Assembly (NCBI GenBank): GCA_903905335.1
Contig: CAIVGC010000073.1
Location: 1-33,002 of the forward strand
Reading direction: 5' to 3'
From: an uncultured Methylococcaceae bacterium
Lineage (GTDB): Bacteria; Pseudomonadota; Gammaproteobacteria; Methylococcales; Methylomonadaceae
Length of the DNA stretch: 33,002 nucleotides
Shown piece after piece: positions 6,089-27,412 of this stretch (the first letter of the stretch is position 1; each line of letters starts with the position of its first letter). The translations under genes were made by a program, and so were the position numbers. The notes under the pieces are model-generated. The model made no database searches, was not told the DNA's origin, and worked only from the letters and a program-made list of their open reading frames with translations.

Positions 6089-6174
6089 AGCTGAACAATA
6101 GTGTTAAGATTGACGTCGAATCGTTTTTTGAACTGTTGAGCGTTGATCACTATAATCAAGTAAGGAGACAACAG

Positions 6175-6750
6175 ATGCCCACTTGTTGGATTATCGCAGG
6201 ACCCAACGGAGCAGGAAAAACCACCTTTGCCCTGGAATATTTACCGACGGTAGCGGGTTGTAGGCGCTTTATAAATGCGGATTTGATTGCGGCGGGACTG
6301 TCACCGCTAGCACCGGAACAGCACTTATTAGTCGCCAGTCGCTTATTTCTACGTGAGCTTGAAGACTGTATTGCCGCGCGACAAGATTTTGCTTTTGAAA
6401 CCACGCTCTCGGGACGAAGTTACCTTAAACTGGTGGAGCGCTTACAAGCAACAGGCTGGCAGGTTGAATTGATTTATCTCGCGTTGCCCAGTGCCGACAT
6501 GTCGCGTCTGCGGGTGGCGGAACGCGTTAGCCACGGTGGACATCATATTGCAGAAGTCGATTTAATTCGTCGCTTTCCTCGTAGTTTGCATAACCTATTA
6601 AATGAGTTTGCTCCTAAGGTCAATCAGGTGCGCTGTTTTATGAATAATGATGATAAACCGGTGTTGATATTTCAACAAACAGGTGTTGTTCGTAGCGTTC
6701 TAAATCCTGATTTTTTTAATTTAATAACAAAAGGAAGTTTAGATGAGTGA
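6175..6750 (+). CDS. Zeta-toxin-like P-loop kinase
   Basis: A 191-residue P-loop ATPase/kinase of the zeta-toxin-like group (often labelled predicted ABC-type ATPase, COG4185). Walker A is GPNGAGKT at residues 9-16. It is followed by FINADLIAAGLSP and FAFETTLSGRSY, the usual family motifs, and an arginine-rich segment near RVAERVSHGGHH. AAGGAG at 6162-6167 lies seven bases before the ATG at 6175, so this start is preferred over an ATG at 6136. Zeta toxins phosphorylate UDP-N-acetylglucosamine; whether this subgroup does so is not established. The next gene overlaps by eight bases, as in a toxin-antitoxin pair. Confidence 0.82.
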   Translation: MPTCWIIAGPNGAGKTTFALEYLPTVAGCRRFINADLIAAGLSPLAPEQHLLVASRLFLRELEDCIAARQDFAFETTLSGRSYLKLVERLQATGWQVELIYLALPSADMSRLRVAERVSHGGHHIAEVDLIRRFPRSLHNLLNEFAPKVNQVRCFMNNDDKPVLIFQQTGVVRSVLNPDFFNLITKGSLDE

Positions 6751-6956: not shown

Positions 6957-7071
6957 TCGTAAGATGTATAGAGGCAATAGCCGAAACCCATCATAAACAT
7001 CCAATGTGATTAATGAGTTTTGTTATTTTACCAACCTGATGGGTTTCGCTATTGCTTTACCTATCCTACGA
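6957..7071. repeat. Long imperfect palindrome between convergent operons
   Basis: A left arm (6957-6993, starting TCGTAAGATG, ending CGAAACCCATCA) and a right arm (7037-7071, TGATGGGTTTCG to CCTACGA) pair over about 35 bases with a few bulges around a 43-base spacer. The right arm ends one base before the stop codon of the minus-strand cupredoxin gene. Transcripts from both sides would fold it, so it may stabilise or end both. Similar phrases occur near 127, 3307 and 4262, marking a dispersed family. Confidence 0.75.
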
Positions 7072-7072
7072 A

Positions 7073-7774
7073 TTACTCGTCTGTCTTTTGTTTTTTATGT
7101 TTCAATGACGACCATCGTTTTTTTACTAGATCTTTAATGCGTGGTGCGTTAAGAAAAATAATAAAGGGAATCACACAACCTACTAGCACGCAGAGTATTA
7201 ATATAGCTGTGGTTAATGAACTCCAATCTACCGGATAGATATCGGCTTTTACTGGGGCGGTTAATCCGGGTATGCTGGGTAAGTCGCCATTGCCGCCATC
7301 AACTTTCAATTGTGCTTTCATGCCTTTTTCCATGTGTTGGGGCAATTCACAATGTACGAGATACGTCTTTTTTAAGCTAGGTACTATCAACGAGGCTTGT
7401 AGCTGGCCTTCGCCATAAAGTTCTAAATGCAGCATGCCATCAGGATATAAATAACCCGGTAAGCCATGTATCATCAATTGATGGCGTATCTGGTCATCAT
7501 TAATAAAAGTGATATTGATTTTAGCGCAGGGTTTAACATTCCATTCTTGTTGATCGAAGGCAAACATCTTGCCGGTAAACTTTTGTGCATGTTGTTGACC
7601 AGCTCGAATAGTAATATCGACGGTTTCTGAAATAGCCGTGCAGTCCCTAGGCAAGGTGTCGCTGTTGGCATTCATAATCATGCCTTTATCATCCATGAGC
7701 ATACCGCCCATTTGCATGGCAGATACCCATGAACTAGCGCAGAGCATGACTAAAGTAAGTGCTAAGGTTTTCAT
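7073..7774 (-). CDS. Membrane-anchored cupredoxin
   Basis: A 233-residue copper protein expected outside the inner membrane. An N-terminal signal peptide (residues 1-19, ending WVSA) leads to a methionine-rich start (residues 20-34). The cupredoxin fold spans about 50-158, with type 1 copper ligands His98 (RHQLMIHG), Cys142, His147 and Met152 (HCELPQHMEKGM). A membrane helix at about 186-209 is followed by a basic cytoplasmic tail. It would carry electrons or copper at the periplasmic face. The start ATG overlaps the stop of the multicopper oxidase gene by four bases (ATGA), so the two form one operon and probably work together. The partner beyond that is unknown. Confidence 0.85.
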   Translation of the reverse strand: MKTLALTLVMLCASSWVSAMQMGGMLMDDKGMIMNANSDTLPRDCTAISETVDITIRAGQQHAQKFTGKMFAFDQQEWNVKPCAKINITFINDDQIRHQLMIHGLPGYLYPDGMLHLELYGEGQLQASLIVPSLKKTYLVHCELPQHMEKGMKAQLKVDGGNGDLPSIPGLTAPVKADIYPVDWSSLTTAILILCVLVGCVIPFIIFLNAPRIKDLVKKRWSSLKHKKQKTDE

Positions 7775-9429
7775 GGTTGTTTCCGTCTAGCAATAAGCGC
7801 ACTAAAAACTAATAAGGCGATGATCAAGCCAGCCAGCAGGCCGAAGAGGATGATATGAATATAATTCGGAGCGACTAAGCCTGCGTCACCTAGTAAGGCT
7901 GCAAAATCGCCGCTGTTCCATACGGCTTGTTTTTTAGCGTAATAGTCTTTATTAAAGACTTGATCGAATAACTCATCATGCATTTTGGGCATACCTAGGT
8001 CATCAAGATAGTGTTTATAGGCAAGAATAGCCATATTACCACCCGGTTCCATGCCGTCGGTAGTCGTGCCTGTAGGCACATGATCATGAAACATCCACAA
8101 GCCAGGGCCATAGCTATGTAAGCCATCATCTTTGGTTTGTAAGCGTAAGTCGGTGCGTTGCGCTGGGGCGATATCAAAGACATCCCGTGTTATTTGCTGG
8201 CCTTCGGTTAGTTCTACGCCATCTAAGGCCGTGATCGTTGCTTTGTGGCCATGAATATGTAAAGCGATAGAAGAGCGCTGTAAATTGGCGATATGCAGCT
8301 TAATGGTCTCATTTTCCTCAGCGATGATCATAGCGTCACGCAGTGTATAAGGAAAAGAGTGACCGTTGAGCATGAAGTAGTTCTCAAAAGACTCCGTCAT
8401 GTTGTAGTCTCTAGCCATGCGTTGCGCAATGAGTCTAGGGTCAATGGCTGTTTGTATGATAGATGCCAATTTCTTATCAACGGATTGATAATGTAGATCA
8501 TATTCTTGACTGTAAGCTTTTTTGACCGCAGTCGAGGGGTGACGTACTTGTCCTGCGCCTATATTAAAGGTTTGTAGCCAGTTATTGGCTTTGTTTTCTT
8601 CAACGATGAACATGCCATTTAGGCCCATCATAAAATGCTGCGCAGTTTGCACATGGCAGTGATAAAGCATGGTGCCAGCATGTCTAGGCTGTATTTGATA
8701 AGTGTGGCTCTTACCTGGAAAAACCGCATGTTCTTCCATACCATCATTATCTTGGCCTTGGTCATTAAGCCAAGGATGATCTACGCCATGTAAATGTATG
8801 GTGTGCGGTAAGTAATGGGTGTTTTCTAGGGTAATATAAACCTTATCGCCTTGTTCAACGCGGATGATAGGAGAGGGCGCGCGTAATAAAGGATTAGCCA
8901 CTAATGAGTTAAAGTTTTTTAGCGCCATACCACGTGATTTGGGTGCATAGACCCAAAGCCCTGGTTGTATGCCTGGCGCTATATCATAAGTGTTGATTAA
9001 AAACTCACCATCAGGACTGGCGCCGTTAAGTTCAACGACTTCCAGTTTAATGTGAATAATATCTGGATCGCCATCATGATCTAAATCATCGCTTAGGGTG
9101 ATGGCATCTTGAGCAAAATTAGTCTGCATTAAGGTGGACATCGAGACATTATTAGTGCCTTTAACCGAGGTGACAATGTCATAAGGATTATCAGGTTCGC
9201 AGGACGGCGCCGCATCTATGGTAACTCCTTCAATCACTTGCGCAGGCCGCCATTCAGGATGATCATTGGAGCAGGGCTTATTGATACTGCTATTGTCTGA
9301 ACGACTGTAAATAGTCTCAGGAGGGATTATGCCAGCAGGTTCTTGTAATTGAGGGATAACTTTGATAAGAGCCGCGATCAGCACTACAAGCAGCGGTACT
9401 ATCCAGAGCATAACGTATTTAGAGTTCAT
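7771..9429 (-). CDS. Membrane-anchored two-domain multicopper oxidase
   Basis: A 552-residue oxidase with an N-terminal anchor (residues 6-27) and a C-terminal membrane helix (about 522-545), so the catalytic part should lie in the periplasm. Domain one carries HLHG (His212, His214) and HCH (257-259) followed by His265 and nearby Met residues, a complete type 1 copper site at Cys258. Domain two carries HIHGH (391-395) and HDH (448-450) but no Cys, so only trinuclear-centre histidines. Eight histidines for the trinuclear cluster are present. Type 1 copper in domain one only resembles the type C two-domain oxidases. An Asp-rich loop DLDHDGDPD (115-123) looks like a calcium-binding loop. The substrate is unknown. 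No clear ribosome binding site is seen; a TATAAT lies about 20 bases upstream of the ATG. Confidence 0.88.
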   Translation of the reverse strand: MNSKYVMLWIVPLLVVLIAALIKVIPQLQEPAGIIPPETIYSRSDNSSINKPCSNDHPEWRPAQVIEGVTIDAAPSCEPDNPYDIVTSVKGTNNVSMSTLMQTNFAQDAITLSDDLDHDGDPDIIHIKLEVVELNGASPDGEFLINTYDIAPGIQPGLWVYAPKSRGMALKNFNSLVANPLLRAPSPIIRVEQGDKVYITLENTHYLPHTIHLHGVDHPWLNDQGQDNDGMEEHAVFPGKSHTYQIQPRHAGTMLYHCHVQTAQHFMMGLNGMFIVEENKANNWLQTFNIGAGQVRHPSTAVKKAYSQEYDLHYQSVDKKLASIIQTAIDPRLIAQRMARDYNMTESFENYFMLNGHSFPYTLRDAMIIAEENETIKLHIANLQRSSIALHIHGHKATITALDGVELTEGQQITRDVFDIAPAQRTDLRLQTKDDGLHSYGPGLWMFHDHVPTGTTTDGMEPGGNMAILAYKHYLDDLGMPKMHDELFDQVFNKDYYAKKQAVWNSGDFAALLGDAGLVAPNYIHIILFGLLAGLIIALLVFSALIARRKQP

Positions 9430-9540: not shown

Positions 9541-9694
9541 GTATTTTAAGTTTTTATCGTTCTCACCCTCTGCGCTCATTGTTATATAGACTCTCAATTC
9601 CCGTCATTCCGGCATGGACTGCTGGAATGACGGCTACAGGGATGTATAAAGATTTCCATCCATGGCGCTGGATACCGGCTTCCCTGTCGGTATG
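9541..9694 (+). repeat. Dispersed repeat, copy 1 (about 155 bp)
   Basis: The reverse complement of 27257-27412 matches over about 150 bases, most strongly from CGTCATTCCGGCATGGACTG through GGCGCTGGATACCGGCTTCC. The inner part forms hairpins (ATTCCGGCA/TGCTGGAAT). It fills most of the space 9430-9739 between the copper operon and rpiA. An open frame across it (9492-9698) is not a gene. Confidence 0.85.
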
Positions 9695-27256: not shown

Positions 27257-27412
27257 GTCATACCGGCCGGGAAGCCGGTATCCAGCGCCATAGAGAGTAA
27301 TCTTTATACGTCCCTGTAGCCTGGATTCCGGCAGTCCATGCCGGAATGACGTGCATGGAGCGTGTATATAACTCTGCGCGCAGAGAATGCGTACGATAAA
27401 AGTTTAAAACAA
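27257..27412 (-). repeat. Dispersed repeat, copy 2 (about 155 bp)
   Basis: Reverse complement of 9541-9694. It carries the hairpin ATTCCGGCA with TGCCGGAAT and a second stem TACCGGC with GCCGGTA. It fills most of the 334-base space between dusA and the radical SAM gene; no gene is seen there. Confidence 0.85.

Follow-up and report, generated by a model that had tools for sequence, protein, structure and literature searches.

The window, a 33,002-nucleotide stretch (contig C73 of a 3.17-Mb draft genome), carries on its reverse strand two genes, one encoding a membrane-anchored multicopper oxidase (MCO) and the other a cupredoxin (CUP), joined by a start/stop overlap (Table 1). An initial annotation had described this two-gene operon, with an oxidase whose type 1 copper is confined to domain one (Cys258), trinuclear histidines in both domains, a calcium-like loop and membrane helices at both ends, and the present analysis agrees with each of these assignments. 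MCO was matched above cut-off by the Pfam models Cu-oxidase_3, Cu-oxidase_2 and Cu-oxidase. The type 1 ligands H209, C258, and H265 are located in domain 1, and the HDH motif of domain 2 is devoid of a type 1 Cys. Eight trinuclear histidines (H212, H214, H257, H259, H391, H393, H448, and H450) are distributed over the two domains, and an N-terminal extension of approximately 180 residues carries the DxDxDGDPD loop. Alignment of 107 homologues revealed that the type 1 ligands, the trinuclear histidines and the loop are all invariant. The axial position of the type 1 site, a point missing from the initial annotation, is occupied by Leu270, with Leu in 102 and Met in five of the 107 MCOs. Leu at this position suggests a high potential and is also found in high-potential laccases and Fet3. 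The AlphaFold2 model of the MCO monomer (pLDDT 48.7) was left out of the analysis. The closest named relatives of the genome are Methylococcales (Methylobacter and Crenothrix MAGs), with 92–96% identity in MCO.

The best PDB sequence matches of MCO are the type C two-domain MCOs 3g5w (E 9e-28) and 2zwn (E 9e-26), with which it shares two cupredoxin domains, a type 1 copper in domain 1 only and the eight trinuclear histidines. Type C enzymes form homotrimers with their trinuclear sites at the interfaces. In comparison to these enzymes, MCO adds the extension with its invariant calcium-type loop and the helices at both ends, and differs in having a near-obligate cupredoxin partner. Leu270 aligns with the axial Met of 2zwn (GMWG), although the axial residue varies among MCOs and is not strictly defining. 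Assignment of MCO to CopA or CueO was rejected, as these models scored 38.8 bits (cut-off 479) and 36.8 bits (cut-off 525), each over approximately 90–100 residues, or about one domain. NirK was likewise rejected, with TIGR02376 reaching 46.5 bits against a cut-off of 296.3 over residues 185–278 only.

CUP carries a signal peptide ahead of its Met-rich start, a single cupredoxin domain and an anchor at the C-terminus. The initial annotation had noted the Met-rich start, the anchor and a type 1 copper site with ligands Cys142, His147, and Met152. The ligands H98, C142, H147, and M152 are invariant in all 22 CUPs compared, as are M34, M101, H103, and M114, and M32 is present in 20 of them. A PDB profile search with CUP gave chance-level matches only, but the AlphaFold2 model (pLDDT 78) was matched by Foldseek to cupredoxin folds, including small laccases and auracyanin (E approximately 3e-6). 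CUP combines a His and a Cys/His/Met loop within a cupredoxin fold, as expected of a type 1 copper cupredoxin.

Table 1. Positions in the window of the MCO-CUP pair and its sequence features
Feature	Position	Strand	Basis
MCO-I, membrane-anchored two-domain multicopper oxidase, 552 aa	7771..9429	-	ORF, Pfam, PDB match
MCO N-terminal hydrophobic helix, signal anchor (aa 7-25)	9355..9411	-
MCO DxDxDGDPD calcium-type loop (aa 115-123), in the extension outside the 3g5w/2zwn match	9061..9087	-	five Asp invariant, 107/107
MCO domain 1, H209 (type 1), H212/H214 (trinuclear)	8788..8805	-	alignment of 107
MCO domain 1, H257-C258-H259...H265...L270: type 1 Cys and His, trinuclear His, axial Leu	8620..8661	-
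MCO domain 2, HxHGH (H391, H393 trinuclear)	8245..8259	-
MCO domain 2, HDH (H448, H450 trinuclear), without type 1 Cys	8080..8088	-
MCO C-terminal hydrophobic helix (aa 524-542)	7804..7860	-
ATGA start/stop overlap joining MCO and CUP	7771..7774	-
CUP-I, anchored type 1 copper protein (cupredoxin), 233 aa	7073..7774	-	ORF, alignment, AlphaFold2/Foldseek
CUP Met-rich start of mature protein (MQMGGMLMDDKGMIM)	7673..7717	-
CUP type 1 His98	7481..7483	-
CUP type 1 loop C142...H147...M152	7319..7351	-
CUP C-terminal membrane anchor (aa 190-208)	7151..7207	-	hydrophobic helix

In the window, the pair is flanked by rpiA and a zeta-toxin-like gene, and pmo genes are not adjacent. The latter neighbour, a small zeta-toxin/AAA_33-like kinase gene (6136–6750, + strand; Pfam E 4e-10), is downstream of the pair and encoded on the other strand. 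Between this gene and the pair, an inverted repeat (GCAATAGCCGAAACCCATCA...TGATGGGTTTCGCTATTGC, 6974–7058) recurs in incomplete form on four further contigs of this genome and is probably a small dispersed element. A palindromic repeat (CCGTCATTCCGGCATGGACTG...) occurs at 9601–9621 and 27332–27352, two copies compared with none in shuffles, and a PD-(D/E)XK nuclease-family transposase gene (PF12784) is located at 1998–2870 on the reverse strand. In a promoter scan, promoter-like sites were no more numerous than in shuffled sequences.

Pairing, paralogues, and gene neighbourhoods

The initial annotation had suggested examining the co-occurrence of the two genes, with regular separation counting against a functional pair. 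Among 80 named relatives compared, CUP lies immediately 3' of MCO in all 77 whose contig continues past MCO, and a 4-base overlap is present in 56 of the 76 in which the junction was measured. The flanking genes otherwise vary among these relatives, which indicates that selection keeps the two genes adjacent and that their pairing is not a chance arrangement. Separation is thus not seen for MCO-I, the window type, and is partly seen for a second type, MCO-II, in which the oxidase can stand alone and the cupredoxin accompanies pmoD elsewhere.

The two types are separated in the tree, and the genome of the window holds both paralogous sets: MCO-I/CUP-I in the window, and a second set comprising a lone MCO-II (C98/C328) and pmoD-CUP-VTT (C171), with pmoCAB on C122. 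In families f4–f6, MCO-II is found in the order pmoD-MCO-CUP, usually accompanied by VTT. The window's family has a solitary MCO-II, with pmoD-CUP-VTT at a separate locus, so that oxidase and cupredoxin are both retained although the operon has split.

Analysis of other neighbourhoods revealed MCO-CUP beside genes of copper membrane monooxygenases (CuMMOs, comprising pMMO, AMO, and hydrocarbon monooxygenase). Twelve named loci share the order MCO-CUP-pmoC-pmoA-pmoB on one strand, approximately 220 bases upstream of pmoC, with one contig (L079) cut within pmoC. These loci belong to the paralogue clade of the window copy, which has full support and 14 members; the contigs of the remaining two members stop short of this region. 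The module lies downstream in four further families, as pmoC-pmoA-pmoB-pmoD-MCO-CUP in L123 (f8), L124 (f7), and L163 (f18) and as pmoA-pmoB-pmoD-MCO-CUP in L171 (f145). Placement upstream in one lineage and downstream elsewhere speaks against one chance event as the cause. Between pmoB and MCO lies pmoD, a homologue of the solved PmoD 6cpd (E 9e-20 and 3e-13); the Cx8MH or Cx8M motif described by Fisher et al. (2018; PMC6189053) is present in some of its copies. The same paper states that Cx8MxnC PmoDs are commonly encoded near multicopper oxidase genes and that pmoD of gamma-proteobacterial methanotrophs lies outside pmo operons, whereas L123 and L124, from the same order, carry pmoD inside them. 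With respect to PmoD/AmoD neighbourhoods, pmoD would be the third gene of the ancestral module.

In L123 and L124, CUP is followed by a VTT-domain gene. This small membrane protein (approximately 142 aa) closes the pmoD-MCO-CUP module in L122–L124, L129, L188, and others. At L123:6862-9320, MCO has a lipoprotein-like N-terminus (LLTAC) and no C-terminal helix, and CUP is without an anchor in that family. The gene copC occurs near pmo-linked MCO-CUP copies, and at L054:11502-12452 a divergent pmoD-like gene and copC lie beside an MCO-CUP-pmoCAB cluster. In G240, the order COX2-1-3-4-pmoD-MCO-CUP (L164) places the module at a cytochrome oxidase operon, encoding another copper enzyme, with no CuMMO detected in this genome. 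In G604, MCO-CUP lies directly 5' of norCBQD (L182:2847-10524). The gamma-proteobacterium G883 encodes a 669-aa single-chain fusion (L183:6090-8099) that joins the Ca-loop region and the MCO domains to a CUP-like domain (70 bits) and to the Cu(I)-binding domain CusF_Ec, the last above its Pfam cut-off. This fusion parallels the tethered-cupredoxin nitrite reductases 6tfd and 2dv6, in which a copper oxidoreductase carries an attached cupredoxin, whereas the cupredoxin of MCO is usually a separate protein. Unlike 6tfd and 2dv6, MCO is an oxidase, as its trinuclear histidines are complete.

Distribution relative to CuMMO genes

With a profile built from 18 MCOs, the family was found in 174 of 181 Methylococcales genomes, and pmoA/amoA, detected by PF02461, in 150 of the same genomes. 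All seven MCO-negative genomes (G043, G055, G080, G089, G095, G103, and G133) are also pmoA-negative, and the association is significant by Fisher's test (2e-6, uncorrected for kinship). The 24 genomes with MCO and without pmoA may partly reflect assembly gaps, since pmo copies presumably often collapse in drafts. Both states occur in family f7, where MCO and pmoA were lost jointly. This family may be Cycloclasticus, whose isolate clade is devoid of hydrocarbon monooxygenase (PMC12510462).

In a sample of 318 genomes of the class outside the order, MCO was found in six, PF02461 in six, and both in four (Fisher 5e-7), so that the two coincide in four of the eight genomes with either one. CuMMO was not detected in the MCO-positive G240 (complete) and G359 (draft), both outside the order, and G224, G408, and G688 are CuMMO-positive without this MCO. 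Within the phylum sample, MCO and a CuMMO (three amoA-type copies) occur together in G604, a probable ammonia oxidiser. G688, of the same phylum and another class, has CuMMO only, with ten PmoD matches, and G883 has a divergent MCO only, with no CuMMO detected.

Candidate roles of the pair

A link between the MCO-CUP pair and CuMMO is very likely, and its presence in nearly all gamma-proteobacterial methane oxidisers and beside pmo genes in several genomes suggests that the two proteins are probably copper-handling helpers of pMMO. The initial annotation had placed a dedicated copper, iron or nitrogen-oxide redox unit at the membrane. The invariant copper ligands, the strict pairing and the MCO-CUP-CusF fusion support such a unit well. 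Its linkage to pmoCAB, pmoD, and copC, together with the cytochrome oxidase operon that adjoins it in one genome, favours copper over iron and nitrogen oxide, the latter kept weakly alive by norCBQD in one ammonia-oxidiser-like genome. Its statement that the unit was not known by name was fair, and it lacked the CuMMO context.

We consider it somewhat more probable than an even chance that the pair is a cuprous oxidase relay at the inner membrane that sets the redox state of copper, either for loading CuMMO or for protection. What the analysis observed is the anatomy of the two proteins, the invariance of their ligands, their pairing, and their linkage to and co-occurrence with CuMMO; the substrate, the direction of electron flow and physical contact are what we infer. 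The window pair would represent one of the copies of a conserved module accessory to CuMMO, with the ancestral form pmoD-mco-cup-(vtt) adjoining pmoCAB. With both proteins presumably fixed to the inner membrane on its periplasmic side, the Met-rich CUP with its type 1 copper may collect Cu(I) or electrons and hand electrons to the putatively high-potential, axial-Leu type 1 site of MCO. From there, electrons would reach the trinuclear cluster, with O2 reduced to water. Together with PmoD and CopC, the pair may set the Cu(I)/Cu(II) balance for pMMO copper loading or for protection around pMMO. Counting against the relay, the axial Leu also fits iron or phenol oxidases, CuMMO is undetected in G240, G359, and G883, MCO is absent from G224, G408, and G688, the window pair lies away from pmo, and norCBQD is a neighbour in one genome.

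Ranking next is a role as an electron-transfer unit of pMMO, in which CUP and the oxidase type 1 site would connect CuMMO to c-type cytochromes or quinol by moving electrons between them, and O2 reduction would serve as overflow or to lower oxygen. Two type 1 sites fixed side by side, the linkage to pmoCAB and PmoD, and the norCBQD and cox neighbours fit this role, as does the CuA-type centre formed by PmoD (PMC6189053). We nevertheless regard it as unlikely, given that a complete trinuclear site would compete with pMMO by using electrons to reduce O2, that the CusF fusion indicates copper rather than electron donors, and that G688 combines CuMMO and ten PmoD matches with no MCO. The fusion, the MCO fold and copC near pmo-linked copies would also suit general periplasmic copper detoxification, CueO-like and merely common in copper-rich cells. 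By oxidising Cu(I) in the periplasm, MCO would share its reaction with the cuprous oxidases CueO and CopA, but these are three-domain and soluble, unlike the anchored two-domain MCO, and their models fell far below cut-off. As MCO presence follows pmoA and most of the class sample outside the order is without it (6 of 318 positive), detoxification appears less probable still.

A nitrogen-oxide unit resembling nitrite reductase, with CUP as donor, would account for norCBQD downstream of the pair in G604 and for NirK being the best, though weak, NCBIfam match. Retention of all eight trinuclear histidines, two-domain oxidases as the closest structures, and denitrification neighbours not being found in the methanotroph loci examined make it very improbable. 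We give equally little credence to a laccase-like oxidase of iron, manganese or phenols, which the axial Leu and the Pfam MCO match would allow, since no iron or lignin gene context was seen and the distribution tracks copper monooxygenases.

How CuMMOs are supplied with copper and electrons is a long-standing question, and the pair, which co-occurs and is linked with these enzymes in lineages that oxidise methane, hydrocarbons and probably ammonia, offers concrete candidates for the loading and protection of CuMMOs or for their supply with electrons. The genomes also define the paralogue sets that need joint deletion. A further reading, which we regard as speculative and rather improbable, would have MCO, CUP, and PmoD assemble with pMMO/AMO at the membrane into a complex governing both the delivery of active-site copper and its redox state. 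If true, these would be missing components that help to explain the loss of pMMO activity on purification and the failure with AMO. Purified pMMO loses most of its activity, and to our knowledge purified active AMO has never been obtained. Isolated pMMO is described as far less active than whole cells (PMC6189053).

The fold families and the pmoD-MCO neighbourhood are already known. In the searched papers, all accessible without subscription, we did not find the MCO-CUP unit and its tracking of CuMMO, the anchored, Ca-loop, axial-Leu MCO subfamily with a cupredoxin partner, its order-wide retention, the co-loss with pmoA or the placement on either side of pmoCAB. In the passages of PMC6189053 considered, there is no description of a cupredoxin partner, of the pairing across Methylococcales or of MCO-CUP linked to pmoCAB. 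MCA2128-2130 are not discussed in an M. capsulatus transcriptome paper, and a 2026 M. trichosporium transcriptome makes no mention. M. capsulatus pmoD MCA2130, located beside a multicopper oxidase, is reported to be lower without copper, as cited second-hand from PMC6688271, and Nitrosococcus oceani Mco (Noc0889), a possible member of the family, is ammonium-induced (PMC3772326).
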